Source of the DNA: a virus
DNA length: 39,292 bases
Virus record (IMG/VR): IMGVR_UViG_3300042321_001857
Span: 1 to 39,292 of that record
Direction: 5' to 3' (one strand)
In this document: positions 1-39,292 of the stretch, piece after piece
How the letters are laid out: the number at the start of each line of letters is the position of its first letter
Numbering within the stretch: the stretch's first letter is position 1
Translations under genes and position numbers: made by a program
Notes under the pieces: model-generated
The model's input: only the letters and a program-made list of their open reading frames with translations
Databases searched by the model: none
Told to the model about the DNA's origin: nothing

Positions 1-244
1 GCCGAGCGCGGGCACGTTGCCGGTGGAGGCCGAGAACGGCACCCACCACGTCTCGGTGCCGTCAACGCGAAGCTCGCCGTCGTTGACGTCGATGATGCCG
101 AGGACGGCGGCGTTCTGGGCCCAGCGCACGTCACTGTTGATCGTGACCACTCCGCCGGAGTTGATCGTGATGGTTTCGCCGTTCAGGAGCCCCAAGATCG
201 AGGCGTCGTCGTAGTTGACGGCGGTGGTGACGGTTTGGTTTGCC
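1..244 (-). CDS. GC-rich virion-associated protein, C-terminus cut by window edge
   Basis: A reading frame starts with ATG at 244 on the minus strand and stays open to base 1, giving 81 visible residues that begin MANQTVTTAVNYDD. The visible part is rich in beta-branched and small residues (TITINSGGVVTINSDVRW) and resembles the repetitive beta-structured N-termini of phage tail or fibre proteins; this family impression is from memory. By my count the 240 bases are about 65% GC, against about 30% GC in the 60 bases immediately upstream and about 40% for the rest of the window, and the composition changes right at the start codon. The Shine-Dalgarno is weak (AAAGA). It is the last gene seen of the operon that begins at the promoter near 1389. 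It may be a recently acquired structural gene; a chimeric assembly is the alternative. Confidence 0.7.
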
Positions 245-268
245 ATAATTTATCTTTAATAGTTATAT

Positions 269-718
269 TTAGCTATAAGTATAGTTAGCTCTCAGGCTCC
301 ATGTTTTATCAAACTGTGCTGTACCACCTGCCCAAGTCTCCGCTACGTCCCCATCACCAGCAATAACAATCTTTTTTATTCTCCAAGATGTAGAAGTTTC
401 TGCAGAGCCTACAGCAGCTTCGCCCTTATATAGTTCGTTTTCTGTGACAAAATCTATTCGTTTACTGTATGGCACGTCTTCTTCTCCTGAGACTCCTGGT
501 GGTCCTTGTGGTCCTTGTGGTCCCTGTATACCGCCCTGAACAATAACATCTTTGATCTGTTCTTCATGTACAACAGTGCCCAGATTATCAACAGAAATAA
601 TATCTATATTTTCCTGTTGAGACAGTATTCCGTAATTTTGTTCAGAAATAACAATTGTATCTTTTAAATCGTCAACAACTGTTATTGTTTGCTGAGTTTC
701 TATAACTGCTGTTTCCAT
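269..718 (-). CDS. Collagen-like short virion/tail protein
   Basis: 149 residues. The N-terminal 60 residues are acidic and beta-like. A short collagen-type Gly-X-Y run (GPQGPQGPPG) lies near residues 66-76, followed by a C-terminal domain ending WSLRANYTYS. Small phage proteins with a short collagen stretch and a closing segment of this type (WRIKKI..., then FDKTWSLRA) are common next to fibre genes and are thought to be virion-attached; this is family knowledge, not tested here. The start codon is one base downstream of the previous stop (718 against 720) with almost no Shine-Dalgarno, so translation is probably coupled to the BppU-like gene. Collagen-like triplets form trimers, so a trimeric fibre linker is a reasonable inference. 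No enzyme motif is visible. Confidence 0.75.
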   Translation of the reverse strand: METAVIETQQTITVVDDLKDTIVISEQNYGILSQQENIDIISVDNLGTVVHEEQIKDVIVQGGIQGPQGPQGPPGVSGEEDVPYSKRIDFVTENELYKGEAAVGSAETSTSWRIKKIVIAGDGDVAETWAGGTAQFDKTWSLRANYTYS

Positions 719-719
719 A

Positions 720-1307
720 TTATCTTGTTACTTCTTTAACTAAGGAAACTGTACCGCCAATAAAGGGTGTTACTTCACTGCCATTTACCAATTCCAAACT
801 ATAAACCGCAGACTGAAAGTTTAGAGCGGCTGTAACATTGGCTGGAATAGTTAAAGTTATAGTTTTTAGTGTATTATCTATCAAAATTCTGTTGTTTTCT
901 GTTGTTAATTCAGTTAGTACTGTTAAATCCTCGAGTTTTGATCTGATCTGCATACGAGCAGTATAGCCGGTCAAGTCGACAGGTTGATTGTACTCCAGGA
1001 CTCCACCACCTGTATAGGTTGTATAGTTCAGTGCATTGACTGAGTTAAAAGTCGCTGTGTTGGCAGCAACTTCACTGGCAACTAAGTAGTTGTCACCAGT
1101 ATTGGCTTCTTTCATGCCAAGGGCACCACTGATCTTGGTTCTCCAGCCCACTGGTACTCCATGGTTAGCGGCAGTGACCACCATGGGCGCAGTTTTTGAG
1201 ATATTGCTAATAGGTGCGTATACTTTTAAGGCACTTTCCCAACGTAAGGTTTCACGAAAGGTACTGCCCTGATATATTTTAAGATTTAACTTTGTCGGAC
1301 TAGCCAT
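720..1307 (-). CDS. BppU-like baseplate/fibre protein with inserted FCCH-like domain
   Basis: 195 residues. The opening (LNLKIYQGSTFRETLRWE) and the closing half (VDLTGYTARMQIRSK, then YSLELVNG) match the pattern of the phage BppU N-terminal family, a beta-sandwich that attaches receptor-binding proteins to baseplates. Between them, roughly residues 35-105, is an inserted segment (VVTAANHGVPVGWRTKISGALGM...YTGGGVLEY) that looks like the small FCCH-type beta domain often shuffled among phage tail proteins. The start is supported by a good Shine-Dalgarno (AAAGGAG) 7 bases upstream. It is the first gene after the promoter at 1366-1394 and so starts its own transcription unit just after the bilin gene terminator. 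A second BppU-like gene at 16110-16532 lacks this insert. Confidence 0.75.
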   Translation of the reverse strand: MASPTKLNLKIYQGSTFRETLRWESALKVYAPISNISKTAPMVVTAANHGVPVGWRTKISGALGMKEANTGDNYLVASEVAANTATFNSVNALNYTTYTGGGVLEYNQPVDLTGYTARMQIRSKLEDLTVLTELTTENNRILIDNTLKTITLTIPANVTAALNFQSAVYSLELVNGSEVTPFIGGTVSLVKEVTR

Positions 1308-1365
1308 TGGGCACTCCTTTATTATATAGAGCTGTAATTTTTAAAGCTCTTGTCATTTTGGTACT

Positions 1366-1394
1366 ATTATACCACAAGGGCATCGTAGGGTCAA
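1366..1394 (-). promoter_or_regulatory. Sigma70-type promoter (P3) upstream of the BppU-like gene
   Basis: On the minus strand, TTGACC (1389-1394) and TATAAT (1366-1371) are separated by exactly 17 bases, and TGG precedes the -10. It lies in a 122-base intergenic gap directly after the terminator of the bilin genes and points to the gene starting at 1307. The same terminator-then-promoter arrangement recurs at 16589-16653 and 32838-32914. Confidence 0.85.
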
Positions 1395-1397
1395 GCG

Positions 1398-1431
1398 AAA
1401 AAATACCCAGCTTTGTGGGCTGGGTATTTTT
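1398..1431 (-). terminator. Rho-independent terminator after the bilin reductase gene
   Basis: A perfect 10-bp stem (AATACCCAGC, 1402-1411, with its complement at 1419-1428) closes a 7-base loop and is followed on the minus strand by six T (1398-1403). It begins at the stop codon of the reductase gene (1430), so it ends the long fibre and bilin transcript. The flanking A and T runs also make it plausible in the reverse direction, but there is no plus-strand gene to end. Its sequence is closely related to the terminator at 16621-16653. Confidence 0.9.
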
Positions 1432-2113
1432 ATAGCTGTGGAAATAAACAGTGATTAATAAACTGTGCGATCTTGTCCTCTTCAAAACCCAGGCTTTTTA
1501 ACACTCTAGGCGTGTGTGGGTTTTGCTTTTGTTGAATACAGTAGTGATTTTGTTTGTCTGTGTAATTGTACTGCTTTATTTGGTCGTCAAAAGTTACTGC
1601 TGGACGATAGTTTTCTATATTATCTAAGTAGTATGTCAAGCACTTTTTGTTGAGGTCTAACAACTCCAACAATTCAAACTCGGTGTTTATATTTCCAGCC
1701 GCTATGATGTTATCACTAAAAATAGATTTGGCCCAGTCCGGCAGCTCTCTGGGCTTGGACCAGCTGTGACGCTCTGCTTCACCTTTAAACCAATCGCACA
1801 ATTTGTGGTCAGGATTTACTGGGCTAAGGTCTAAAAACGCTCCTGTTATTTTGTTGGCTCCAGCTATAATGTCAAAACCATAGATGGGCGCTCCATCGTA
1901 AACATGTGGAAAGATGCACAGGTGCATCATCCACAGCTTTTTAGTTTCTGTGGCATCTATTACATCAATGTTTCCTCTTCTAAACCAAGCACTATTATAG
2001 GTTTGGCTTAGGTGAGCTAGTTCAGTGCTTTCTGGAATCAAAAAAGCACGGGATTGTAGTATGGTTTGCAATTCTTTTGCATGAGTTTTTAATCTGTCAA
2101 ATATTATACTCAT
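1430..2113 (-). CDS. pcyX: Ferredoxin-dependent bilin reductase (PcyX/PebS/PcyA superfamily)
   Basis: 227 residues from the ATG at 2113. This family reduces biliverdin IXalpha with ferredoxin electrons to phycobilins. The core motif runs from His64 (MMHLCIFPHVYDG) to Asp81 (IYGFDIIAG), followed by ITGAFLDLSP and KPRELPDWAKSIFSDN. His64 and Asp81 are 17 residues apart, exactly as His88 and Asp105 of Synechocystis PcyA. The C-terminal signature (NHYCIQQKQN..TPRVL) is also family-typical. The PcyA Glu76 position aligns with a non-Glu residue, which argues against a true PcyA and for a PcyX- or PebS-like enzyme making phycoerythrobilin; the subfamily is my inference and needs a tree. An upstream in-frame start at 2167 has no Shine-Dalgarno, whereas 2113 has AGGA six bases away. 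The start overlaps the heme oxygenase end by 17 bases. A terminator follows at once. Confidence 0.9.
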   Translation of the reverse strand: MSIIFDRLKTHAKELQTILQSRAFLIPESTELAHLSQTYNSAWFRRGNIDVIDATETKKLWMMHLCIFPHVYDGAPIYGFDIIAGANKITGAFLDLSPVNPDHKLCDWFKGEAERHSWSKPRELPDWAKSIFSDNIIAAGNINTEFELLELLDLNKKCLTYYLDNIENYRPAVTFDDQIKQYNYTDKQNHYCIQQKQNPHTPRVLKSLGFEEDKIAQFINHCLFPQL

Positions 2114-2618
2114 CTGCAATCCTGTCAAAAAGCTGCAATGTAAATTCAAAACAACTGTTGGCTTCATCAGCCATGGAAACGTCCAGTTTGCTTCTTAAGT
2201 CATGGATCAATTTCTGACGGTTTTGGAAATTGTACATACTACCAGCGCCAGGAACTTTGGTCTTGATTAACTGACCACCATAGAGGTCGCCCATGTGTTT
2301 GGTGTAGATGTGAGCCCACAGTTTGTGTGGGTTTAGACCTTTAACATGGTTACAGTACTGGGCTGTGGTGTCAAATAACACCACAGGTTGTTTCAACTCC
2401 AACAAGTCCTGCAATATGAGTTCACTGCGACTAAGGCCTGGTAGATAACCCAACAGGTCCGCGCTGCAGTGCTCTAACACTTGGTACTGTAGCAACTGAT
2501 TGGCTAAATAAGTGGCATAGATGTTGGGGAACATTTTGCCACTTAATAACAACTTGGTAAAAGAGTGTTCTTCAGCCAGGCTGTGGTTGTGTTGTGTTAG
2601 TTCTTTGAGTGTTGTCAT
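2097..2618 (-). CDS. ho1: Heme oxygenase (biliverdin-forming), compact phage form
   Basis: 173 residues. Heme oxygenase opens heme to biliverdin IXalpha, iron and CO using reduced ferredoxin. The N-terminus (LKELTQHNHSLAEEHSFTKL) matches the proximal-helix signature, with His12 as the likely heme iron ligand. The distal helix is seen as HMGDLYGGQLIK (Gly110, Asp111, Gly114, Gly115), and Asp111 matches the catalytic Asp140 of human HO-1. A conserved PGAGSMYNF follows. It is well below the usual 220-240 residues of cyanobacterial and cyanophage HO1, but both helices are intact and the reading frame is clean. Its ATG overlaps the stop of the preceding fibre chaperone gene (ATGA) and has no clear Shine-Dalgarno, so it is probably translated by coupling. 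The next gene consumes its product, which supports the assignment. Confidence 0.9.
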   Translation of the reverse strand: MTTLKELTQHNHSLAEEHSFTKLLLSGKMFPNIYATYLANQLLQYQVLEHCSADLLGYLPGLSRSELILQDLLELKQPVVLFDTTAQYCNHVKGLNPHKLWAHIYTKHMGDLYGGQLIKTKVPGAGSMYNFQNRQKLIHDLRSKLDVSMADEANSCFEFTLQLFDRIADEYNI

Positions 2619-2986
2619 TCACTTGCGTTAGTAGGAGCTGTTGGTGGAACCACATCAAGAAAATTGGTAACATCTTTAAAAGTTTCAGGCATATCCCGTA
2701 ACTGTTGTCGATATGTTGCCCACTGTGATTTCTGTGTTTGAGTTAGTGGACTGTCTGGTAACTGGGTCCAATCACTTTGTTGTAGTAGATAATTTCGCAT
2801 ATTGCGAATACCCGTTTCAATCTGCTCTTTAGTCAGTTGAGGTGTTTCAGGAACTGGCATGTCTTCAATCCACCCAAGTTCAGTTAGGCCTACTTGATCT
2901 CTTAGACCAGTTCTGCTCAATACATCTGGATAGGCAATAGGGCCCTCTACAACCACACCATCAACTACATAATTATAGTACACCAT
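2615..2986 (-). CDS. Tail fibre assembly chaperone-like protein
   Basis: 123 residues starting MVYYNYVVDG at 2986, preceded by AGGAGA. A longer reading from 3049 would run back into the glycine-rich gene and has no ribosome site. The C-terminal half contains RNYLLQQSDWTQLPDSPLT, then WATYRQQLRDMP; this Leu-x-x-Ser/Thr-Asp-Trp...Pro-Asp-Ser pattern, with W..YRQ.LRD, is typical of phage tail fibre or tail assembly chaperones (Pfam Phage_tail_APC-like). Its start overlaps the stop of the glycine-rich adhesin (TAATG), the same pairing as other fibre and fibre-chaperone genes, so it probably helps fold or attach that adhesin. It is also joined by ATGA to the heme oxygenase gene. Confidence 0.8.
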   Translation of the reverse strand: MVYYNYVVDGVVVEGPIAYPDVLSRTGLRDQVGLTELGWIEDMPVPETPQLTKEQIETGIRNMRNYLLQQSDWTQLPDSPLTQTQKSQWATYRQQLRDMPETFKDVTNFLDVVPPTAPTNASE

Positions 2987-3801
2987 TACATATCTCCTGT
3001 GCCGGTTGAGGGAAAGAATCGGCCGGGTCCCCAAATAATTCTGACACAACCGCGGCCGCCACGTTGTAGTCCGATACCGATCGTACTACTACTACCAGGA
3101 CCGCCAGCACCACCACCGTATAGACCCCCTGGTCGGTGACCGTGGCCATAACTGTAGTTACCATTTTCACCAGCTGAACCATCTTCTCCACCACTGCCAC
3201 CTTGGCCACCACCACCATTGCTGAACGAAATACCACTAGCACCTTGGCCAAACGGCCCAACACCGCCACCGCCACCGCTACCATATGTTGAACTATAGCT
3301 CGAGGACCCACCGCCACCGCCGCCTTGGCCGTTAACATCTTGGCCTCCACCGTTACCGGTATAACCGCCGGCGCCACCGCCGGCATGCTGGCCGGCGGTG
3401 CCCCCATTGCCTCCACCATCACCAACCCAAGTTCCACCACCAGCGCCACTACCACCAAAACCAGCTACAGTACTACTATTAATAAACCAACTGTCTCCGC
3501 CGGACTGACCGCCGCTGCCCCCAGGATCACCACCTCTTCCTACCTGTACTGTATAGTTTTGGCCTGGTGTTACAGGAATATTATTTTTCCAACCCAATCC
3601 GCCGCCGGGGCCGCCGCCGGCGGCCCAGTTCGAGCCTCTACTACCGCCACCCCCACCAATACATACCGCACAAACACTGGTTACTCCAGGAGGACAAGTC
3701 CAAGTATAGGTACCATTACCAGAACCATAAAAAGCTTGACCTATTGGTGGTGATGCAGAAGTAGTAGTTGCTGATCTATTAATATCAAGAATTCTGGCCA
3801 T
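2986..3801 (-). CDS. Glycine-rich tail-tip adhesin
   Basis: 271 residues. Residues from about 47 to 245 are dominated by Gly runs (GGGGGSRG, GGGPGGGLG and many more) broken by short Ser, Asn or Tyr segments. The C-terminus (RGGRGCVRIIWGPGRFFPSTG) is the usual end of phage glycine-rich tail proteins. Such Gly blocks can pack as polyglycine-II helices, as in the gp38 adhesins that sit on the tip of T4-like long tail fibres; gp38-like function is inferred from composition and position. The Shine-Dalgarno is GAGGAGAA, and the start overlaps the previous stop. The local GC rise at 3300-3650 is explained by Gly codons. Predicted receptor-binding role; the target is unknown. Confidence 0.75.
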   Translation of the reverse strand: MARILDINRSATTTSASPPIGQAFYGSGNGTYTWTCPPGVTSVCAVCIGGGGGSRGSNWAAGGGPGGGLGWKNNIPVTPGQNYTVQVGRGGDPGGSGGQSGGDSWFINSSTVAGFGGSGAGGGTWVGDGGGNGGTAGQHAGGGAGGYTGNGGGQDVNGQGGGGGGSSSYSSTYGSGGGGGVGPFGQGASGISFSNGGGGQGGSGGEDGSAGENGNYSYGHGHRPGGLYGGGAGGPGSSSTIGIGLQRGGRGCVRIIWGPGRFFPSTGTGDM

Positions 3802-5357
3802 TAGGTGTTCTCCTCGTATCCAAATACTTGAGCTCTTACACCATTGATGTTGCTGTGGACAACCACTGAACTGTTGGCATTCAATATTAATCCTGTATTG
3901 GACAGTATGGCTCCAGGACTGAGACTGGTGTTAAACTCCAGTAGGTCGCCGGGGGCTGTTGCCAGTGCTTGATCCATGTGGCAAAAGTTTCGACGGTATC
4001 CTGCAACACTCTGTTCCATGACCATCCAACTTTTTGCACCCTCTGTAAACGTACCAATGGGTGCATACTTAAAATTAACACCACTTGCAGGCAATCCTGT
4101 TGTAATTGTGTTCAATAAAAATGCTCTGTTGGTTTGGTCACATTTGTACCAAGTATCTCCTGCGGGGTTGGTGTGCCATAGGTTGCCACTGGTATCGAAC
4201 CAGTAACCAATACCATTTTTGTCTTCAACTATTGCCCAGTTGCTAACCATTGTACCGGCAGCACCAAAAACACTGGTTACGTCGTCCCAAGTTGTTGTAT
4301 TGCTAATCCAACCAGTAATTGGTCTACGGTACACACGGCCGTTGCCGCTGTAGCCATAAACAAAGTTGCCAACAGGACGCACCCAACGTGCACCGCTACT
4401 GGAGCTGGGCCAGCTGGCCGCCCAGACTTGATAGCTGTTATTACTGCCACCCCAACCACCTGAGTTAACAATTCTGTCGTAGAAATGTACTCCAAAACCA
4501 ATGGTAGAGCTACTGTGACCCATACCTACAAAGTAAAACTGGTTGTCTCGACCTTGACCAAGCCTTGTGGTTGGTAACACTGACAAGTTAAAATTACTGG
4601 TGCTAATGCTGTAACCCAAGGATCCACCAGCTAGGTAATAAAATGAATTGTCGCTGTTGGTTGTACGATCTTCGTTGAAGAATCCACTACGACCAATGGT
4701 TTTAGTAACATATCCGCTGTTGTCATAGCTCAAATAAACGTTTCTAAAACCTATGCCTCCAGCAGTATAGTAGTTTCTTGTACTACCAGTATAACTACCA
4801 CTCATGTCGCCACTGTTCCAACCGGGCTTGGACAGTGGGTGGCTTGTAGGGCATGCCAAGTACCTTGAGCTACCAGCAAACCAGTAGTCATTGTCGTTGT
4901 AGAACCCACTGATTTGAAAGCTGGCATTCATGTTGTTATGATTGTTACCAGTTGTAAGTGGGTGCTCTACTGCATTATCACCAGTTACAGGGTTTGTATA
5001 GGTAAAACCCGTTAAAAGTGTGCGGTCTGTGGGGTTTACCCAGCGGGGGGTATAATTCCCGCTGGTGTTGTTGCGATAAAGATTTGAATTTATTTCATTG
5101 TTAAACACACCATAACCGTAGTTACCTGCATGAAAGGTGTCTGTATACCAATCACCAGAAGCAGTTACAGAACTTGTGGTACTGTACTCTGTGGCACTCA
5201 AGGTGGCGTCGGTTGCCACCATAGATACTTGTGCGATGAATGGTGTTTGATTTCTAAAAGTTACGTTTGTGCTTGATGTCTTACCCGCTGGAACAGTATA
5301 TACTCTATTATCAGTATTTGCTGTTAGTAAGGCTGATCCAAGTTTTCCTGATGGCAT
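3801..5357 (-). CDS. Putative receptor-binding virion protein: split jelly-roll-like domain with propeller-like insert
   Basis: 518 residues. Residues 1-60 (KLGSALLTANTDNRVYTVPAGK, then NVTFRNQTPFIAQVSMVATD) look like the first half of a small phage beta-sandwich. Residues from about 470 to the end (LLEFNTSLSPGAILSNTGLILNA, then VVVHSNINGVRAQVFGYEE) look like the second half of the same domain. The roughly 400 residues between are rich in Trp, Tyr, Gly, Asn and Ser, and carry loosely repeated blades of the kind NDNDYWFAGSS, DNSFYYLAGGS, RDNQFYFVGMG and GIGYWFDTSG, which suggest a beta-propeller. This is inference from pattern. The protein at 11522-11842 looks like an uninterrupted version of the terminal domain. 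The Shine-Dalgarno is AAAGGAAC. No enzyme motif is visible; adhesion is the likely role. Confidence 0.65.
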   Translation of the reverse strand: MPSGKLGSALLTANTDNRVYTVPAGKTSSTNVTFRNQTPFIAQVSMVATDATLSATEYSTTSSVTASGDWYTDTFHAGNYGYGVFNNEINSNLYRNNTSGNYTPRWVNPTDRTLLTGFTYTNPVTGDNAVEHPLTTGNNHNNMNASFQISGFYNDNDYWFAGSSRYLACPTSHPLSKPGWNSGDMSGSYTGSTRNYYTAGGIGFRNVYLSYDNSGYVTKTIGRSGFFNEDRTTNSDNSFYYLAGGSLGYSISTSNFNLSVLPTTRLGQGRDNQFYFVGMGHSSSTIGFGVHFYDRIVNSGGWGGSNNSYQVWAASWPSSSSGARWVRPVGNFVYGYSGNGRVYRRPITGWISNTTTWDDVTSVFGAAGTMVSNWAIVEDKNGIGYWFDTSGNLWHTNPAGDTWYKCDQTNRAFLLNTITTGLPASGVNFKYAPIGTFTEGAKSWMVMEQSVAGYRRNFCHMDQALATAPGDLLEFNTSLSPGAILSNTGLILNANSSVVVHSNINGVRAQVFGYEENT

Positions 5358-5374
5358 AATACTTGTTCCTTTAA

Positions 5375-8300
5375 TTAAAATGTTGCTGAAAACAGCACTA
5401 ATCCACGTTTTGGAGCACGAATGTTTATCTGGTTATCTATATAGGTTCTTACAGCAGCCTCTGTTGGCACAGCCACGTTGCTGTTACCGCTCATGGTGCC
5501 ATCACTGGAGAACTCGTTGATGGTTTCGCCCAACTGAGCACCAATACTACCCAAACGTAAGCTTGTCAAACCAGCCAAGTCAAACGCATTGGCGTTTAGA
5601 GTAGCACGTCCAGTTGCCTGATCAATACGGAAGTATTCGCCTACACGGAAGTTGCCATCTTGGTCTGTACTAACATAGAACACACGTCCTGGGTACACCT
5701 CGTTGGTTTCGTTGCCTTGTGCAGGCGGCTGGGTTGGAGTGCCTGGATAGTTAGTAGTAGATATACCACCTGTACCAATGTTTAAGAAGTCGTGGCCAGT
5801 TAGTCGGATCTGCGAGTATTCACTACGCAGTGTGACTGCTGTGCCGGTTGCACTGCCTGTGGGCTTTTCTTGTGCCAGTATAATCACTATTTCACTGCTA
5901 GTATTGGTATAGGTGCCAGTAAAGCTCTGTACAACGTAGGCAACACTATCTCCTGCAAGTTGAATACTCTGACCAGGTTTGGGTGCTGCTGTCAAGTTGT
6001 TTAGTACAAGTACAAAACCTTTTTGATCTTCCAATGCTCCTGCACTAACAGTTCCTGTGCCACCATCACTAAACGTCAGGGTATCGCCCAGTGTGAAACT
6101 TCCGCTTGTGTTGCGTAAGTATACTTTGTTCGCACTATACTGTACATTTGTTACTATACCAGTTCCACCGCCACTGCTTGTACAGGTATTGCCCACATTG
6201 ATTGTGCCGCCCTGATAAACAAAGTTTAACTGGCGTCCAAGTAGAGTTCCGGTAACAGCGGCTTCGTCAGTTTTAAAGCCCTGACTTACTGCACCCCAAG
6301 TACCGTAACTGTTGTTACCGTTTAGGGCTCTGATATGTCCACCGCCTGTACTTGCATAACCAAAATAGCAATAGTAAGTAAAACAGCTAACAATTTCTGC
6401 TTTACCGCCGTCTTTCATCCAATAACCAACACCGTTATCACTGATAACTGTAAATCCATGGAAAATCATGGATTTTGCACCGGTAGTGTGTACACTGCCG
6501 TCGACCAAGGCACCAATCAAACCGCTGCCAATAGCACTGCACTCCAACACATAGGGTGATTTTGTGGTAATAGGACTGGAGGGGTTTAGTCTTGCTACAA
6601 CACCGCGAATAGTACTGGTTTCAATATTTTCAGGAGTTGTGCCTGGAGTCCAACCAGTCATGCCTACAAAAGTCATCTTGTTCAAGATACTGCCGTTGCT
6701 CATCAACCACATTGTAGACTGATTGTTTGGTGTTACACCATCATCACTGTTACCAGAACGTGGTTGTACAATAGTAGTGCGTTGGTTGTCGCCGACAATA
6801 GCCACATTGGCAGGTACTGTAATGGGTAGTTGTTCGCTGTAGGTACCAGTTTTAACAAAGATCGTGCTTCCTGCTTCCGCCTGCTGGCAAGCATATTTAA
6901 TACTTGCAAACGGTGTAGCCAAGTTGCTGCCGTTTACTACAGTATCCACCCCATGTGGGGCGACATAGTAAACTTTAGAAGATTCTGTAGCACCCAACCA
7001 CAATGCGGCAGTACCTGCTGAAGATATAGTAGGAGATCTACCTACCTTAGTACCACCAGCGTTTAGTGGTTCAGCATTTACTTGACCTGCTAACAAGTCG
7101 TAGTACAGTATATTATTGCCCTGATTTGTACTGGGCACCGCAACTACTTCACCACTATTGTTCAATACTGAGAACCCTAAAAACTCAAAACTGTTGTAGG
7201 GCAATCCATAGTCTCGTAGTTCTTTGATTTCTTGAGTAGCGTACTGAAAAGCTTCGCGAACAGTATCAAAAATATAACTACTAGGTATTTTTACTACTCT
7301 GTCAGTGCTATTTGTAGCAACAAAGTAAACATTAATAAACTTATTTGTGGGAATGTTATTTAAATCATAACCAGCAACTAGGACATAGTTATTGTACTGT
7401 GGAACTGGTGTTAGTGTGGTTGTTGAAGTAAAGCCTGTTGCACCACCTGTGTCTGTAACAACAATATTTGCAAAACTATAGTGCTTGCCTGGATTGACGA
7501 CTGTAACACCTAAAATACCGCTTGGTGTTGCATTAACAGCAAAAGTAGCACCTGTGCCCGGAGTACTGCTGGTTACAGTTGCTGATGCATATGTATAGTT
7601 AGTGCCTGCATTTGTCAATGTAACAGCAGAAATACTATTGCCAGCTGCAAGAGTTAAACTTATTGCACCGTTTTGAGCATGCTGGTTGGCTGTGAGTTGC
7701 ACAGTAGGGGTACTAGTGTAGTCTCTACCGGGATTGGTTACCGACACGCTACCTATTGGGTAACCGCTCAAAATAGCATCTGCTGTAGCACCTGTACCAC
7801 CGCCGCCAGTAATTGTTAGTGTGGCAGTAGTATATCCATAACCTGGATTGACAATAGTCAAGTCAGTTACACCACCAGCAGTTACTTGTGCAGTTACTAC
7901 AGCTCCAAAACCGTCGCCGTTAACTGTTACTGTTGGATTGCTGGTATACCCAGAACCTACGTTAGTGATCTGATAGCTTTCAATTGTGCTCTTACGAACA
8001 AATGCTGTTGCCAAAGCACCTGTGCCATTGCCTGTAATATTTACGTTTGCAAAAGTGTAGCCACTACCGGGGTTTACTATGTTAATATCAGTAACTGCTC
8101 CAGCCACAATGGTAGCTGTTGCAGTAGCACCTGTTCCGTCACCAGTAATAGTTGCAGTAGCATTAGTGTATCCAGTGCCCAAGCTATTCATTACTACAGC
8201 AGCCACTGGGGTACCAGTATTCAAAGTAATGGCTACTGTGGCACCGGTGCCACCACCTCCAGTTACTGTTCCACTAACACTTGTATAACGGCTGCCAGCA

Positions 8301-15999: not shown

Positions 16000-16109
16000 T
16001 GACAACTCCTTGGCCTGCTCCACCACCTTTTAGTAAGGTGAGTAACATAATTTAATCCTACCAGTATGTTAACACAACACTGCTAATACAGTACCATGGA
16101 TCAGTATTA

Positions 16110-32889: not shown

Positions 32890-32914
32890 AAAAAAGCCCG
32901 CTATGGGCGGGCTT
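32890..32914 (-). terminator. Rho-independent terminator after the tail assembly chaperone genes
   Basis: An 8-bp perfect stem (AAGCCCGC, 32907-32914 read on the minus strand, with its complement at 32894-32901), a 5-base loop, then six T (32890-32895 on plus as A). It overlaps the stop codon of the T-part gene at 32913. Confidence 0.9.
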
Positions 32915-33230
32915 AATTGGTCTTTGGTTTGCTATCTTGTATCTTTTTAGATCTGATGCTGTCTATCAACAACAATAGGTCCAGGTAGACTTTGTGTAAT
33001 TCTGGTTCGATGTTGTTTATACGAAACACAGTTTCTATATAGTTAAAATTTTTTCCTATATAGTTGCCACCCATATAATCCCAACAATCTTGCAGGGTGT
33101 TATATATCTGAAACGCTTCCTGAACCTCCAACACTAAATCAGAGAACTCTAACGGTATTTCAGACTCCAGTGGCTCTGTGTTCATCATGTCGCACATGTC
33201 CAAGTAGTGTTCCTTGGTCATGCCCAACAT
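32913..33230 (-). CDS. Tail assembly chaperone T part, probably made only as G-T fusion by -1 frameshift
   Basis: As a free-standing frame it is 105 residues (MLGMTKEHYLDMCDMMN...), acidic and helical, with no Shine-Dalgarno before the ATG at 33230. The same frame is open without stop back through the slippery heptamer at 33290-33296 in the G gene, where it reads LSERQYEEVKDSIGRYFENS before the ATG. A -1 slip there gives a fusion of 264 residues spanning 33706 to 32913. This is the G/G-T arrangement known from lambda and many siphophages, in which T recruits the tail tube to the tape measure. It precedes the tape measure gene, as expected. The independent start is unlikely to be used. Confidence 0.85.
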   Translation of the reverse strand: MLGMTKEHYLDMCDMMNTEPLESEIPLEFSDLVLEVQEAFQIYNTLQDCWDYMGGNYIGKNFNYIETVFRINNIEPELHKVYLDLLLLIDSIRSKKIQDSKPKTN

Positions 33231-33262
33231 GGAGTTTTCAAAGTACCGACCAATACTATCTT

Positions 33263-33706
33263 TTACTTCTTCGTACTGGCGCTCTGAAAGTTTCCCAGGT
33301 CACTTACTGTTTCTGAAACCCAAGCATCAAAATTTGAACTGTTTCTCATCAAGAAAAGCGCATTTTCTTCACTGAATCCCAACTCACTGTTCATGTCTTG
33401 ACCACTGAGTTCTACGGGTGCTAGTTGCTCTAGGTAGGTAAGTTTAAAACCGGTCCAGCCCTTGACAGCCGATTGTACATAGAGTTGTAAAAATAGGTCG
33501 TCATTGAGCTCTTCGGATGCTTGACGATTCTTAAAAACATTCTTTGTAGCCTTTTTACGGATAGAGACTAGGGTTTCTCTGCTTAAAAAGCCCAGAGTAA
33601 CTTTAAATCCTGCGTATCCGGGCATTTCAGCTTCTACGGTTTTACTAGGTACCAATAGGCTCTTTAGTGATAGGTTTACTTGAGAACCACTTGCGTTTTC
33701 TGTCAT
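33263..33706 (-). CDS. Tail assembly chaperone G
   Basis: 147 residues. Phage tail assembly chaperones bind the tape measure protein and feed tail tube subunits. The central part (GFLSRETLVSIRKKATKNVF, then LFLQLYVQSAVKGWTGFKLTYL) with the VKGWTGFK core is typical of this family. It ends ...DLGNFQSASTKK in the zero frame, and the slip site GGGAAAC is nine codons before the stop, consistent with a minority -1 fusion with the T frame. It lies between the major tail protein and the tape measure gene, the standard place. A hairpin at 33726-33751 just ahead may reduce its expression relative to the major tail protein. Confidence 0.9.
   Translation of the reverse strand: MTENASGSQVNLSLKSLLVPSKTVEAEMPGYAGFKVTLGFLSRETLVSIRKKATKNVFKNRQASEELNDDLFLQLYVQSAVKGWTGFKLTYLEQLAPVELSGQDMNSELGFSEENALFLMRNSSNFDAWVSETVSDLGNFQSASTKK
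33290..33296 (-). other. Programmed -1 ribosomal frameshift site (GGGAAAC)
   Basis: On the minus strand the G gene reads CTG GGA AAC, so G-GGA-AAC is a zero-frame X-XXY-YYZ heptamer, one base different from the lambda GGGAAAG site. The -1 frame continues open for 20 codons into the T frame. The pairing with tail chaperone genes makes the function clear; efficiency cannot be judged from sequence. Confidence 0.88.
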
Positions 33707-33725
33707 GAATTGTCCTTGTTGTAGT

Positions 33726-33751
33726 GAGTAGGGTGGATCACCACCCTACTC
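33726..33751 (-). promoter_or_regulatory. Strong hairpin between major tail protein and chaperone genes
   Basis: A perfect 11-bp stem (GAGTAGGGTGG with its complement) closes a 4-base loop. No T run follows on the minus strand, so it is not a standard terminator. It may protect the 3' end of the major tail protein message or partly attenuate reading into the chaperone genes; both are inference. Confidence 0.7.
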
Positions 33752-33760
33752 TGTTAGAGA

Positions 33761-35026
33761 TTAAACTGCGGGAGAAGAGTAGTAAGTAATAGTAGCTTCG
33801 TTGTTTTGCTCAATATCATAGGTTCCGGAGGCTGCGCCTTGAGCTGTAAAGTTGATGCTAGTAGAAATTACTTGCTCTGTACTGATCTGAGGAATCTGCA
33901 ACATGGCTGATGGTAGTTCAAAGATTACCTTGTTTTCCATGGTTGTAGAAGTAGGAACTGCCACACTTCCGCCCATACCGAGTTTGACGTTAAACTGGTT
34001 TTGGTCATAGGTGTTGGCCTGTGTAAGCAGAGTACTCAATAGTTGCGCGGTGTTTGTACTACCGGTTCTCAGATACGCTGTTAAACTGCCGCTCACAGCT
34101 CTGGTACCTACGAAATAGTCAATAGGCTTGTTAACTGTGCCCATTACTGCTGGTGTTAGATAAGTAACGTTGTTGGCAAAAGTAATATTACCACCAGTAA
34201 TAGCAAAGGTATAAGTAACAGCACTTTGACCGTACTTGGCAGCTGTAGATGCCAATTCTACAGTACTCAAACGGTTTGTGATGTACTTACATGTGGCATC
34301 TTTGGGCTTGTAGGCACCACTCATTAGGCCGCCAAAGCTACCTGATAAAGTGGGACTGGTACCAGTGGTTGTTGCTGTTGTTGTGGTTGTAGAAACTTCA
34401 ATTTCTGCAACTTTGCCTGTCCAAGCAATAGTACCAATTTGATCGATACCAAAGTCAACTGAGGCTTGGTCAATAACACAGTTGTGTAGCAACACAGTTG
34501 TGTCGTCAAACACAATAATCAAGCCAAAACGTAGCAATTGATTTCTGTTACTCTGTGTTAGACGGACTTGAGCTGAAGGAACAGTAGTGCCGTTTGGCGC
34601 AGCTGTTTCGGTATATGCTTGTCCAGCTGTAGTTGTAAGAGCGGAAGCACTGCTCAAGTCTACGTTGGTATAACCAAACATAGCATTCCACAGGCAGGCT
34701 TCTTCGGGTCGCACAAAGTCACCAATGTCAAGTCCGGCAGCTACTGCTCCGCCTTCAAACATCTTGGGACGTACATAGGTAGAAATACTCCAATCACCTG
34801 CTTCTAGAGCAGTTGCAAAGCTTCTCTGGCCGCGGCTAGGTGTGCTGCCAGCCTCATTTAAAGTAACTGTGTCTAGAGTGGTATTTTGGCTAAAGCTCAT
34901 ACCGTCTAGAGGTTGTAGTTCGAATGTGTCAGCGGCAGAGCGGGCTGTAGCTGGGGCGATTCTGTTGTCTCCGTCTAGTGCTGTAGTAAAGAATACTCTA
35001 GCACCTCTAATTAAATTAACTGCCAT
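33761..35026 (-). CDS. Major tail (tube) protein
   Basis: 421 residues, MAVNLIRGARVFFTTALDGDNRI, then MSFSQNTTLDTVTLNEAGSTPSRGQRSFATALEAGDWSIS. This opening, with a bound-strand region followed by an RGQRSFxTALxxGDWSxSTYVRP-type segment, is that of siphophage tail tube proteins. The size, the Thr-rich flexible stretch near residue 215-225, and a predicted beta-rich C-terminus agree. The context is also standard: tail terminator before, chaperones G and G-T after. The Shine-Dalgarno is AAAGGAAA. As a protein needed in hundreds of copies it should be among the most highly expressed; a hairpin follows it. Confidence 0.88.
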   Translation of the reverse strand: MAVNLIRGARVFFTTALDGDNRIAPATARSAADTFELQPLDGMSFSQNTTLDTVTLNEAGSTPSRGQRSFATALEAGDWSISTYVRPKMFEGGAVAAGLDIGDFVRPEEACLWNAMFGYTNVDLSSASALTTTAGQAYTETAAPNGTTVPSAQVRLTQSNRNQLLRFGLIIVFDDTTVLLHNCVIDQASVDFGIDQIGTIAWTGKVAEIEVSTTTTTATTTGTSPTLSGSFGGLMSGAYKPKDATCKYITNRLSTVELASTAAKYGQSAVTYTFAITGGNITFANNVTYLTPAVMGTVNKPIDYFVGTRAVSGSLTAYLRTGSTNTAQLLSTLLTQANTYDQNQFNVKLGMGGSVAVPTSTTMENKVIFELPSAMLQIPQISTEQVISTSINFTAQGAASGTYDIEQNNEATITYYSSPAV

Positions 35027-35104
35027 AATTTTTTCCTTTAAGGCTGTGTGTTGTTATCACCTTAACTAGATCTTTATCTGTTGTTGGTGAATAGAACACT
35101 GATT

Positions 35105-35533
35105 CTACACGACCTGGTACCGGACTTGTAGATTGATTTCTCCGACTGCGTACGGAGCTAGCAAACCTTCGTCTGTGGTTATACTAGTGATTAGGATCTC
35201 TGTGGTCTCGCTCAAACCTTCGTATATTAACTGACGATTGAGGTCAATACAGAGTTCAACATCTTCTAAAAGCTTCTCCAACTGGTCTTGGCTATCATCG
35301 CCCTTGCAGTACAGTTTGATGGAGACGGATAAGTAGCCCCACTTGAACTCTCCTGGTAAGTACTCACGAACCTCTGAACCGGGTGTAAGGTAGATGCAAG
35401 GAAAGTCTGTGACCTCATCCCAGAACTTGAGATAGGGATAACTGTTGTCGAATATGTTTATCTGGTAGGGTGCAGCACCGTTGATGAGCTTGAACTTGTC
35501 TGCAAGAGCTGTAACTATTGATTTTCTACTCAT
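35105..35533 (-). CDS. Tail terminator protein
   Basis: 142 residues. The pattern FPCIYLTPGSEVREYLPGEFKWGYLSVSIKLYCKGDDSQDQLEKLLEDVELCIDLN followed by ITSITTDEGLLAPYAVGEINLQVRYQV is the clear signature of siphophage tail terminators (lambda gpU-like fold), which cap the finished tail tube and form the joining surface for the head. It overlaps the neck gene stop by ATGA and precedes the major tail protein, the usual order. The 78 bases after it contain no gene and no convincing promoter. Confidence 0.87.
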   Translation of the reverse strand: MSRKSIVTALADKFKLINGAAPYQINIFDNSYPYLKFWDEVTDFPCIYLTPGSEVREYLPGEFKWGYLSVSIKLYCKGDDSQDQLEKLLEDVELCIDLNRQLIYEGLSETTEILITSITTDEGLLAPYAVGEINLQVRYQVV

Positions 35534-37203
35534 ACTAATACAGCCCTCATACGATTGGCCACTTGAGCTCCCGCAAGTTCGCGGATACTTTTGGAAATCA
35601 ACAATTTAGGATCGCGGGTGTAGGGTCTATCCTGACGTCCGCCGCGGCTAAAAGTTGCATAGGGATTTTTCATGTAACTGTAGAATGCAGTTATCATACC
35701 TTGACGGCTTTCGCTGAGTCGTTCTACTTTTGCGGATTCAGCAAATCTACCAGAGCGGTAGTTCAATACATCTTTGCGAGTGCCTGTACCCATGTTTTTC
35801 TTGATTTGATCATGCAGATTAGCATTGATTAAATTCTGTAGAGATATAATGCTAGATACTTTTGTAATAGCTCCTTGAGAAGCCCTTACTTGAACTTGCT
35901 TTTTCTTTATTGGGGCTATTACTACAGTTTGCTTAGGCCTACCTTTTGCTTTTACCTGAGAAACAGCTTTATCTTTGGATCCAGATACTTGTTTATTTGG
36001 TATTTTTTTACCATCAAATATACTGCCAATAGTTTTAATTATAGAAGTCAGTGCAGGGTCAGAACCTTCTGTAGATAACAACCTTTGTACAGTAATATTA
36101 TCGCTTAGAATATCATCAACTACTTTTTGCACATTAGCAGGGATCTGTACATCTGAGTTTTTTAAAGTTTGAGCTAAGATATTAACTTCGTCTGCTAGAG
36201 GTTTTAAGGAAGTTAAAAACTTTTGCATCTCTTTACCAGCAGTAACGGCATCGGCTCTAACTGCTGTAGTTTTTGCTGCATCTAATAACTGATTAAGATA
36301 TCTGGAACTTGCTGCTAGTTTTCTACCTATTTCTTGATTTGACAAAGACAGTTGGGTTTCAACTGAGACTTTTGGTCCGTCTTTGTCATATATTATTTTC
36401 GTAGTATTTGAAAATAATTCCAAATTTAACTTTATATTACTAGATAGATAATCTGCATCTGATATCAAAGTTACTATCTTTTGAAATATATCGTTTAATT
36501 CTTCGTTTGTGTCGCTGAAAGTTACTGCCATAGATCTGTAATTAGATCTATTGGTCTGTTGTACTTTTAATCCGAATATTCTTTGTAGTCTGATATTAAA
36601 AACACCACTAAGGTGTCCGGTGTCTATATTTTCTTTAATGAAGTCTACTAGTTCTGTTGTAGCTGTGGTTTGTGTTCTCAAAAACTCTACAAAGTATTCA
36701 TTAAATTTTCCGTGACTGATATTATTTACTAGAACTACGTCTTTGAAACTTTCTTCTCGGTTTTTGGCAGTTGCCAATTTAGCCGTAGTATCTATTTCAT
36801 TTTCTCTTACGCCAGTATATTTAAAAGCACCGCTTCTACTTCGTATACTTGCCGCGTTTTCTTGTTTATTTACTTTTTGTAAAAGAAAATTACTTAATTC
36901 GTCAAATATATTATCTCTACCCAATAAAGCTACTGCATCTGCTGCTAAAACACTTTTTTCAGTTAGTAACTTAAAAGTATTTGCTAGCTGCTTTAAACCG
37001 CCTCTGCTTACGCTGGCCTCTTGATTGAGGTTAGTTTCTTTACGTATTTGTTCTAGAGAAAATCCAACTTCTGGATTAAATATTTCTTTTCCTTTTTTGT
37101 CAAAAATTTTCAGTTTGGTACCACTTAGGAACTTATCTGCCTGACTACGAACTCTTTTTAAAATGTGTGCTTGTACAGTTGCACTAAGGGCTGATTTACT
37201 CAT
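35530..37203 (-). CDS. Neck / head-closure-region protein with long N-terminal extension
   Basis: 557 residues. The position between the gp6-like connector and the tail terminator is normally held by HK97 gp10-type neck proteins of about 100-190 residues. Here only the C-terminal 100 or so residues (RKDVLNYRSGRFAESAKVERL, then FYSYMKNPYATFSRGGRQ and TRDPKLLISKSIRELAG) look like such a domain. The first 400 residues are helical and Lys/Glu/Asn-rich (coiled-coil-like), and a basic linker near 395-425 (SKDKAVSQVKAKGRPKQ) joins the two parts. The extension may be a separate domain that projects from the neck or acts in maturation; this is inference. The start overlaps the connector stop closely, with no good Shine-Dalgarno. 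Confidence 0.7.
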   Translation of the reverse strand: MSKSALSATVQAHILKRVRSQADKFLSGTKLKIFDKKGKEIFNPEVGFSLEQIRKETNLNQEASVSRGGLKQLANTFKLLTEKSVLAADAVALLGRDNIFDELSNFLLQKVNKQENAASIRSRSGAFKYTGVRENEIDTTAKLATAKNREESFKDVVLVNNISHGKFNEYFVEFLRTQTTATTELVDFIKENIDTGHLSGVFNIRLQRIFGLKVQQTNRSNYRSMAVTFSDTNEELNDIFQKIVTLISDADYLSSNIKLNLELFSNTTKIIYDKDGPKVSVETQLSLSNQEIGRKLAASSRYLNQLLDAAKTTAVRADAVTAGKEMQKFLTSLKPLADEVNILAQTLKNSDVQIPANVQKVVDDILSDNITVQRLLSTEGSDPALTSIIKTIGSIFDGKKIPNKQVSGSKDKAVSQVKAKGRPKQTVVIAPIKKKQVQVRASQGAITKVSSIISLQNLINANLHDQIKKNMGTGTRKDVLNYRSGRFAESAKVERLSESRQGMITAFYSYMKNPYATFSRGGRQDRPYTRDPKLLISKSIRELAGAQVANRMRAVLV

Positions 37204-37204
37204 A

Positions 37205-37774
37205 TCAGTTGTAGTTCAAAACATAGAGGTCCAGGACCCGTTTAATATGCCCAGGCAGGTTGCTCTGGTTGAGGTACTGAACTTGAGCATTTCCTGTGGT
37301 AACCGCAATTTGACTCTGTACAGCACCTTGATTTTTCATGTAGTAGGTAACCAAGTCCAATACTGCTAACTTCAAGTCTTCTGGGATGGTCTCATAACCA
37401 GCTGTGTAGGTGACACGATAGCCGTTGATCAAGTAGGGAAACTCGGCTCTGTTAATGGGCAAGATCTGTTGATTCTGATTGTCCAGTACCCAGTCTGTGA
37501 ACTCTACCAAGTCAGTATAGCTCTGACCATAATTCTCACTCTTTTCGATGCTGGAGATAGCTATAATAGGCGCTTCACCTAATAACAAACAAGTACCGCC
37601 ATTCAGTACCTCAGTCTTGGCATCATCAACCCAGTCCACAAATGTACGACGGCAGATGCTTTTAACAAATTCTGAAACCTTTGGGATGATTGTTGCGATC
37701 TCTACATCTTGGGTGGTACTGGTGATACCTTCATAAGCTTTGTATTCTTGTAAGGTTATTAAGTTTGCACCCAT
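37205..37774 (-). CDS. Head-tail connector (gp6-like)
   Basis: 189 residues. It begins LITLQEYKAYEGI and continues with IIPKVSEFVKSICRRTFVD, then YRVTYTAGYETIPEDLKLAVLDLVTYYMKNQ, the characteristic pattern of HK97 gp6-like adaptors that dock under the portal ring. The gene directly follows the major capsid gene and has AAGGAG 5 bases upstream of its start. A terminator and a second inverted repeat lie between it and the capsid gene, so it is expressed by read-through or from an unseen promoter. Confidence 0.88.
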   Translation of the reverse strand: MGANLITLQEYKAYEGITSTTQDVEIATIIPKVSEFVKSICRRTFVDWVDDAKTEVLNGGTCLLLGEAPIIAISSIEKSENYGQSYTDLVEFTDWVLDNQNQQILPINRAEFPYLINGYRVTYTAGYETIPEDLKLAVLDLVTYYMKNQGAVQSQIAVTTGNAQVQYLNQSNLPGHIKRVLDLYVLNYN

Positions 37775-37789
37775 GACTTCTCCTTATAG

Positions 37790-37824
37790 TTTTTCCAAAA
37801 GACTGACACAGCCCTTTGGAAAAA
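37790..37824 (-). promoter_or_regulatory. Inverted repeat overlapping the capsid terminator T-run
   Basis: A perfect 10-base inverted repeat (TTTTTCCAAA at one arm, TTTGGAAAAA at the other; 37790-37799 and 37815-37824) encloses a 15-base loop. Its 5' arm on the minus strand is the T-run of the capsid terminator at 37820-37824, and it ends just before the connector ribosome site. It could act as an alternative fold that modulates read-through; this is inference. Confidence 0.6.
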
Positions 37825-37851
37825 CCGGGGACTAAAAAGTCCCCAGTTTTA
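37820..37851 (-). terminator. Rho-independent terminator after the major capsid gene
   Basis: On the minus strand an 11-bp stem with one G-T wobble (AACTGGGGACT paired with AGTCCCCGGTT) closes a 5-base loop and runs into TTTTT. It lies 7 bases after the capsid stop codon, so it should give the capsid gene its own abundant 3' end while downstream genes receive partial read-through. Confidence 0.85.
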
Positions 37852-37857
37852 TTAATA

Positions 37858-39258
37858 TCAGGTCGCTCCGTTGACGTAACGTAGGGTGCTTACTGCAGGT
37901 CCTAGGTTAGTTGTCAGCTGAGTTAGACCAGTACGTAGTGAAGCCACTAGTACACGGCTCTGACGCTCTGTTAGTGTGTCTGTGTCAACACGTAGACCAC
38001 GCTGGTTGCCTACCAAGAAGTTGGCAGGTGCAAAGCAGAAGGCTGCAATGTTAGTACTTGCGCCGTCGGCTGCTTCAGCGATTGCTGGGAACTCGCCACT
38101 TACAACCACTGGTGTGTTGGCAATACTACCAATCTGACCAGTTAACAACGTAGCACGATCACCGACCTTGTCCATTGTCTGGAATGTGGTGTCGTCCAAT
38201 AGGTTGTAGTATGTTTCTGTGTTAACTACATAAACCAACTCTGAAGGCTCTAGACCCCAAGCTCCCAAGTCCTTGCGAAGGGCTCTCATCTTGGCGACAG
38301 TTACAGCGTTCGCGCTGTCGATTTGAACAGCACTTGCACTGTCGTACATTGCAACACCCTTGACTGGGTCGCTGCCACTGCCAGCACCGTTGATCATGGC
38401 TGAATCTACAGCACGTGCAACACGGCGTAGCATAGCATCACGAACGATAGGTAGTAACACTAGGATTGAATCCTCTTCTTCTTCAAGAGCCATGTATTCA
38501 CGTGTGGCAACCTTGAAGGCGTTTAGAGTGATTTCTTTTAACACATGAGTGTCTGTGCTACCAGAACTGTTGTTGTTACTATTACCAAAATCACTGTTGA
38601 TAACCCATGTAGCCTTGCCAGCTTCTGGGTTTAAGGGCATTCTCATCACGTTGGTCTGCATTGCAACGTTGCGAAGTAGTGGAGCCATCACTAAACGGCG
38701 ACGTACTTCGTCTTCCATGGTTGTAGAAACTTCAGTTTCCCATAGAGAAGCAGGAGCAGTGATGATACCAGTTGTATTGCTGCCACCGCCAAGGTGACCA
38801 CCGGCCTTTTCAACTACCATCTTACCATAACGTGTAGACTCAAGAGACTTGCCAGTTACCTTGCTCAGCAACACGGCCATTTCACGCTCCTTGTAGGAGG
38901 TGCTGTCGCCCTTTGACTTGTCGCCAAAAGCCATCTTTGAAGTCTGTAGAGCCTTCAACTCATCGGCCTTTTCCTTTAGAACAGCTTCTAGACCTTCTAG
39001 AGCGCTCTTTTGAGCAGCACGCTCAGTCTCAAAACGCTTTTCAACTTCGGCTAACAGCTTTTCTGTGCCGCTCTGACCAACTTGGATCTGAGCTTCTACA
39101 GCAGCCTTAACGATGCCATTGATTTCAGCCTGACGGGCTGTTTCTTGTGCTTTGGCATCTGCCAGAGCTTTTTGACGGGCTTCTAGGGCCACGGTAGCTT
39201 GTTCGGCAGCTTCACGAGCAGCTTGGGCAAGCATTTGCTTGATTTCTTCTGGATTCAT
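37858..39258 (-). CDS. Major capsid protein (HK97 fold) with N-terminal scaffolding domain
   Basis: 466 residues. Residues 1-110 are an Ala/Glu/Lys/Gln-rich coiled coil (AAREAAEQATVALEARQKALADA...), the delta or scaffolding domain of HK97-type capsid proteins, normally removed by the prohead protease. The fold proper follows: N-arm, then TTGIITAPASLWETEVSTTMEDE, MRMPLNPEAGKATWV, the spine helix (DSILVLLPIVRDAMLRRVARAVDSAMINGAG), PVKGVAMYD, and LVYVVNTETYYNLLD, all in the usual order. The start has AAAGGAAT upstream. The gene ends at a terminator. The protease and portal genes would lie just outside the window at higher coordinates. Confidence 0.93.
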   Translation of the reverse strand: MNPEEIKQMLAQAAREAAEQATVALEARQKALADAKAQETARQAEINGIVKAAVEAQIQVGQSGTEKLLAEVEKRFETERAAQKSALEGLEAVLKEKADELKALQTSKMAFGDKSKGDSTSYKEREMAVLLSKVTGKSLESTRYGKMVVEKAGGHLGGGSNTTGIITAPASLWETEVSTTMEDEVRRRLVMAPLLRNVAMQTNVMRMPLNPEAGKATWVINSDFGNSNNNSSGSTDTHVLKEITLNAFKVATREYMALEEEEDSILVLLPIVRDAMLRRVARAVDSAMINGAGSGSDPVKGVAMYDSASAVQIDSANAVTVAKMRALRKDLGAWGLEPSELVYVVNTETYYNLLDDTTFQTMDKVGDRATLLTGQIGSIANTPVVVSGEFPAIAEAADGASTNIAAFCFAPANFLVGNQRGLRVDTDTLTERQSRVLVASLRTGLTQLTTNLGPAVSTLRYVNGAT

Positions 39259-39292
39259 ATTCCATTCCTTTTTAATGTCGCGATCTGACTCT

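Follow-up and report, generated by a model that had tools for sequence, protein, structure and literature searches.

A predicted heme-to-phycoerythrobilin cassette at the end of a tail-fibre operon in a T5-like aquatic siphophage

Phycoerythrobilin (PEB) is a pink pigment of cyanobacteria, and the ho1, pcyA and pebS genes of cyanophages follow the logic of converting heme to biliverdin and biliverdin to a phycobilin. These cyanophages are T4-like cyanomyoviruses, and in the two that we examined the heme oxygenase (HO) and reductase genes lie apart. Outside the cyanophages, the hemO-pcyX pair has been published from marine phages and from the Pelagibacter phage Mosig EXVC030M, and hemO-pcyA/X(-valaS) cassettes from pelagimyophages and the freshwater phage CB_2; the CB_2 enzyme is a PcyA, produces PCB and lacks Asp55 (PMC11480375). 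The activity of related enzymes has likewise been published (PMC11480375, PMC6755814, PMC13197396), and the making of phycobilins by phages of non-photosynthetic bacteria has been called enigmatic (PMC11480375). The hemO-pcyA-alaS island of Bradyrhizobium ORS278 also places an HO gene beside a ferredoxin-dependent bilin reductase (FDBR) gene in a non-cyanobacterial setting, as in the locus described here, but is chromosomal and accompanied by a phytochrome, whereas the present pair is phage-borne (PMC11480375, PMC10151467).

This pair lies on the minus strand of a 39,292-base IMG/VR virus record, referred to here as the window (Table 1). We interpret it, with a probability of roughly 70%, as a two-enzyme auxiliary metabolic cassette that forms the last two genes of the fibre operon of a T5-like aquatic siphophage and would convert heme, via biliverdin, to PEB late in infection. 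Mosig shares both genes, their order and a similar overlap, and its reductase is 42% identical to the window reductase over the full length; however, the cassette of the T4-like Mosig lies between 2OG oxygenase/ferrochelatase and neck genes, whereas that of the T5-like window closes the fibre operon. Just upstream of hemO-pcyX, Mosig has one ferrochelatase gene and four genes for 2OG-Fe(II) oxygenases (L007 1599-5454), and genes for heme synthesis and heme breakdown thus adjoin. The published hemO-pcyA/X(-valaS) cassettes of aquatic phages resemble the window in pairing a phage HO with a PcyX- or PcyA-like reductase outside the cyanophages, in fresh water too, but the marine hemO-pcyA/X-valaS contigs were assigned to myophages (PMC11480375). 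Pfam and PHROG searches showed no AlaS gene beside the window cassette, and none was found in its T5-like kin; AlaS was therefore rejected as a third cassette gene in the T5-like carriers. Of the 40 carriers searched for it, 4 had the gene, and none of these was T5-like. The preliminary description, made from the sequence alone, had considered the setting unlike a typical cyanophage gene block, which holds for the location at a fibre-operon end but not for its isolation, since the pair is that of the published phage hemO-pcyX cassette.

Table 1. Coordinates of the predicted cassette, its operon and neighbouring phage genes in the window
Feature	Position	Strand	Basis
Predicted heme oxygenase (HemO/HO-1 type), 173 aa	2097..2618	-	PF01126, predicted fold, H12 + GDLYGG
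Predicted PcyX-like ferredoxin-dependent bilin reductase, 227 aa, start MSIIF	1430..2113	-	PF05996, 5OWG match, D50/H64/D81, FDBR fold
Tail-fibre assembly chaperone, directly before cassette	2615..2986	-	PF16778, 60.4 bits; PHROG tail fiber assembly
Glycine-rich tail protein	2986..3801	-	PF21722, phrog_4474
Putative tail fibre/adhesin protein, same operon	3801..5357	-	Position and overlap
Large tail fibre protein, 1971 aa	5375..11290	-	phrog_9851 tail fiber, E=2.5e-224; C-terminal part marks cassette-carrying phages
Two small genes accompanying the fibre, including on unrelated phage backbones	11292..11842	-	
Intrinsic terminator straight after the reductase stop codon	1399..1431	-	-17.4 kcal/mol, z -7.55
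Sigma-70-type promoter-like site of the next operon	1366..1394	-	Extended -10; TTGACC-17-TATAAT
First gene of next operon, adjoining the fibre-assembly gene in cassette-free relatives	720..1307	-	phrog_1084
Collagen-like, weakly tail-fibre-like protein	269..718	-	phrog_5073, E=2e-4
T5-type tail/head genes: tail chaperones, tail tube, tail terminator, p143-like, head completion, major capsid	32913..39291	-	

The first cassette gene is predicted to encode an HO-1-type heme oxygenase, to which the family match, the fold, the proximal His and the GDxxGG motif of the distal helix all point. Its product matches PF01126 at 58.9 bits (cut-off 23), and the AlphaFold model (pLDDT 96) displays a heme oxygenase fold, with heme oxygenases accounting for all of its 50 best PDB matches. 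The proximal His (H12) and the G-D-G-G positions of the distal-helix motif (GDLYGG, 110-115) are invariant in 16 homologues. The start of the HO gene overlaps the stop of the preceding fibre-assembly gene by 4 bases (ATGA), while HO and FDBR overlap by 17 bases, a figure that follows from placing the reductase start at 2113; both overlaps suggest translational coupling. This start is the most likely one, as homologues share the MSIIF beginning, and an upstream ATG at 2167 was rejected because it is not conserved. Furthermore, HO lies directly upstream of FDBR in nearly all of about 85 related loci, and dN/dS values well below 1 for both HO (0.06-0.37) and the reductase (0.04-0.18) indicate purifying selection; they were estimated from those T5-like relatives that have diverged least from one another, comparisons that include the window being mostly saturated. 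The adjacency and the low dN/dS together indicate that the pairing is not due to chance. At four loci (L012, L013, L016 and L021), the reductases are about 90% identical and their partner heme oxygenases only 50-64% (except L016/L021). The histories of HO and FDBR appear to be partly uncoupled. No Rfam match was found in positions 1-6000 of the window.

The reductase matches PF05996 at 75.7 bits (cut-off 31), and its model (pLDDT 94) displays the FDBR fold, matching PcyA, PcyX, PebA, PebB, HY2 and PebS. By sequence, the closest solved relative is PcyX EBK42635 (5OWG, E=8.6e-52), followed by PcyA (3.7e-14). Residues D50, H64 and D81 correspond to the active-site set Asp55, His69 and Asp86 of PcyX, shared with both 5OWG and Mosig, and H64 and D81 are also the equivalents of PcyA His88 and Asp105. 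Asp50, like PcyX Asp55, stands where PcyA has Glu76, a residue that PcyA requires (PMC10151467), and this position is Asp in all viral relatives of the PcyX-like group but one (L006), which has Asn. In the genome with this exceptional residue (G002; L006 4546-12750), GroES/GroEL-, Hsp20-, ClpS- and ClpP-like proteins surround the HO-FDBR pair. The preliminary description had claimed two adjacent, overlapping genes, an HO with its proximal His and GDxxGG motif and an FDBR-family reductase with equivalents of PcyA His88 and Asp105; the two family matches above cut-off, the predicted folds and the residues listed above bear out each of these points.

In a maximum-likelihood tree of the reductases, PebA/PebB/PebS split off, followed by cyanobacterial and cyanophage PcyA. 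The window groups with 5OWG and Mosig in a set of 89 sequences with 96/96 support, in a tree whose references are partly fragments and whose bootstrap is not settled; the inner forks of this PcyX-like group are mostly unresolved. Both the tree and the active-site residues place the window reductase outside the cyanobacterial PcyA and PebA/PebS clades, and on this sequence evidence it is assigned to the phage PcyX enzymes. Cyanophage reductases fall in other clades; their PcyA is 24-30% identical to the window enzyme, and their PebS is not matched. A search of 385 genomes for alphaproteobacterial reference reductases returned, apart from the G092 bin, only divergent FDBR-like genes, so the tree holds no alphaproteobacterial PcyA. 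The affinity to PcyX and the Asp in place of PcyA Glu76 lead to PEB as the predicted product. Related reductases are encoded on more than 560 IMG/VR stretches.

The phage that carries the cassette is, as identified by its gene matches, a T5-like aquatic siphophage. Its capsid, head-completion, tail-terminator, tail-tube, p143-like and tape-measure genes match those of T5-type phages, in agreement with the earlier proposal of a long-tailed phage with an HK97 capsid, and the best sequenced relatives, at about 30% identity, are T5-like phages of Vibrio, Salmonella, Escherichia, Klebsiella and Aeromonas. T5-like (Demerecviridae-type) phages have genomes of about 105-120 kb with a tRNA cluster and terminal repeats; the window spans 39 kb, and a relative with the same cassette and a 62% identical capsid protein (G001) spans 102 kb and encodes 20 tRNA genes and replication genes. 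The cassette is present in at least eight T5-like contigs, counting the window. In G001 an Rz1-like lysis gene follows the cassette, and a gene like it occupies this place in several other T5-like carriers. Since the backbone is T5-like and G001 possesses this Rz1-like gene, a non-cyanobacterial, Gram-negative host is likely; a scan of genome contigs made to assign the host matched only five metagenome-bin contigs, too few to be of use. Upstream of the bilin cassette, G001 also encodes two unusually cysteine-rich, glycine-rich tail proteins (L002 1-1543), cysteines being the residues to which bilins are attached in phycobiliproteins. Sugar genes (carbamoyltransferase, cytidylyltransferase-like, PfkB kinase, cupin and epimerase) lie between its fibres and the cassette (L002 2095-7508). 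In the window, two proteins of 1034 and 1922 aa (12922-16026 and 17935-23703) have no PHROG match, and parts of them recur in cassette-free T5-like relatives.

The terminator begins at the FDBR stop codon itself, and just past it an extended -10 promoter-like site precedes the next gene; relatives have comparable hexamers in the corresponding position. The proposed location at the end of an adhesin operon is thus confirmed, with the fibre-assembly chaperone gene overlapping HO and the terminator following FDBR. The cassette had also been described as lying inside the operon, with fibre genes on both sides; the terminator and promoter cut off the downstream genes, and the cassette therefore ends one operon and does not lie inside it. 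In the cassette-free T5-like relative G045 (97 kb, capsid 67% identical), no gene intervenes between the fibre-assembly gene and a terminator that has the window's stem (ATACCCAGC...GCTGGGTAT); after it come a promoter-like site and the counterpart of the window's next gene (62% identical), and G036 shows the same gene order at its empty site. As the fibre-assembly gene and terminator adjoin in both relatives, HO-FDBR sits exactly between them, and the comparison identifies the cassette as an insertion flanked by the stop codon of the final fibre-operon gene on one side and the terminator on the other. Other T5-like carriers repeat the arrangement of fibre, Gly-rich protein, assembly gene, HO and FDBR. 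Another contig, L199, is 98.7% identical to window positions 1-1431 (L199 11692-13122), with a sharp break at the FDBR stop/terminator, and upstream of the terminator it carries other fibre genes and no cassette; six further contigs share window positions 946-1431 only. The terminator seems to delimit a fibre module that can be exchanged. Within the operon, the putative adhesin gene next to the large fibre has no family match in Pfam or PHROG searches.

The C-terminal region of the large fibre, used as a query, matched 55 loci. HO and/or FDBR lay within 9 kb in 35 of the 40 with enough downstream DNA, and in two more (L207 and L248) the cassette lay just beyond the fibre contig stretch (L008 and L009), for a total of 37/40; the remaining three were not scored either way. 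Among T5-like contigs, the fibre was present in 8/8 capsid-bearing carriers and absent from 11/11 cassette-free contigs, which were found by their capsid and for some of which a few terminal kilobases were left out (Fisher 1.3e-5). The capsid tree requires at least five switches between presence and absence of the cassette, and only four independent pairs bear on the association (p=0.125), so it amounts to a strong association and not to proof. Among the carriers that lack a T5-like capsid match are G492, with an N4-like-type single-subunit RNA polymerase and a different capsid and portal, and G484, with lambda-J-like tail genes. Co-inheritance of fibre and cassette as one block is not supported, as fibre and FDBR identities correlate poorly (r=0.21, p=0.10) and FDBR follows the capsid (FDBR/MCP r=0.77, p=0.004); the link is therefore one of presence and not of a single shared history. 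Moreover, 47 of 66 FDBR loci lack such a fibre in about 6 kb upstream, and the distribution of the cassette is wider than that of the fibre type. The cassette could, although we regard this as unlikely, be functionally part of a fibre (host-recognition) module re-used by unrelated phages, so that any phage acquiring the fibre would carry HemO-PcyX as well, the reason being that the fibre's host uses or is weakened by PEB-type bilins, or that the bilin acts in adsorption or release. If so, a cassette co-expressed with the adhesin would be a host-specific pigment tool or signal and not a photosynthesis aid.

In the mechanism that we propose, HO-FDBR would be transcribed late in infection together with the fibre genes, as its place before the fibre-operon terminator suggests, and transcription would stop at that terminator. 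HemO would open the heme ring, yielding biliverdin IX-alpha together with iron and CO, and the PcyX-type reductase would then use four electrons to convert biliverdin, via 15,16-dihydrobiliverdin, to PEB. A host ferredoxin (or flavodoxin) probably supplies the electrons, since no Fer2-family ferredoxin gene was found in 13 carriers, most of them partial. Phycobiliprotein genes were also absent from the same carriers, and neither protein was retained as a phage-encoded component. The purpose would most likely be the control of heme, iron and bilins in a non-cyanobacterial Gram-negative host, whether to manage iron and heme or to supply a bilin to a host receptor or globin, and a role in phycobilisome repair is unlikely.

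Several other explanations can be set against this reading. The cassette may serve mainly to break down heme and release iron, with the reductase only removing the HO product or detoxifying biliverdin. Iron supply has indeed been proposed for such cassettes (PMC11480375), the inferred late co-transcription with structural genes would fit a need other than light harvest, and the Mosig cassette is embedded among genes for ferrochelatase and 2OG-Fe(II) oxygenases. However, both catalytic residues of the reductase and the PcyX-specific Asp are kept under purifying selection, so the specific bilin product seems to matter, and iron loading of HxH motifs in the fibres was discarded because such motifs are essentially absent from the fibre proteins; we hold this explanation to be possible but doubtful. 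It is quite unlikely that the reductase has PcyA activity and makes PCB, which would provide a phytochrome or bilin-binding globin of the host with its chromophore. Although the window enzyme also aligns with PcyA, and CB_2, with the same type of cassette, encodes a true PcyA (PMC11480375), PcyX is the best match by a wide margin, Asp50 replaces the Glu that PcyA needs, and the CB_2 enzyme is without the Asp55 whose equivalent the window reductase possesses.

A cyanobacterial host, whose phycobilisomes the cassette would keep supplied as proposed for cyanophage ho1/pebS/pcyA, might be suspected from PEB being a cyanobacterial pigment and from the fibre, whose best sequenced-phage matches are cyanophage fibres (about 40% over part of its length). 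This is very unlikely, given the T5-like capsid, tail and replication genes, the gammaproteobacterial hosts of the sequenced relatives, the lack of ferredoxin and phycobiliprotein genes in the 13 carriers, and the distance of HO and FDBR from the cyanophage versions. An assembly chimera, with the cassette wrongly joined to a phage contig, would account for the window's own HO/FDBR junction being in no second contig and for a GC content of up to 64% at about positions 1-250 against 41% for the window. Nevertheless, it is extremely improbable: the empty-site comparison, in which the cassette-flanking genes adjoin with the same terminator and promoter, and L199, in which the high-GC end is present, speak against it, and the order Gly-rich, chaperone, HO and FDBR recurs in more than 10 other contigs. 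The high-GC end (positions 1-246) codes for the N-terminus of an uncharacterised protein with one weak phage relative (MW202577).

The enzyme pair is already known from other phages, while its carriage by T5-like phages and its close tie to a single type of tail fibre seem to be new; no T5-like carrier, fibre-operon insertion or fibre linkage was found in the literature searched, which consisted mostly of papers free of subscription. Taken together, these findings extend the range of the cassette beyond T4-like phages to T5-like siphophages and other phage types, and they present it as an exchangeable unit at the end of the fibre operon, tied to one tail-fibre type. The question of its purpose thereby becomes testable through the host of this fibre and that host's use of PEB.
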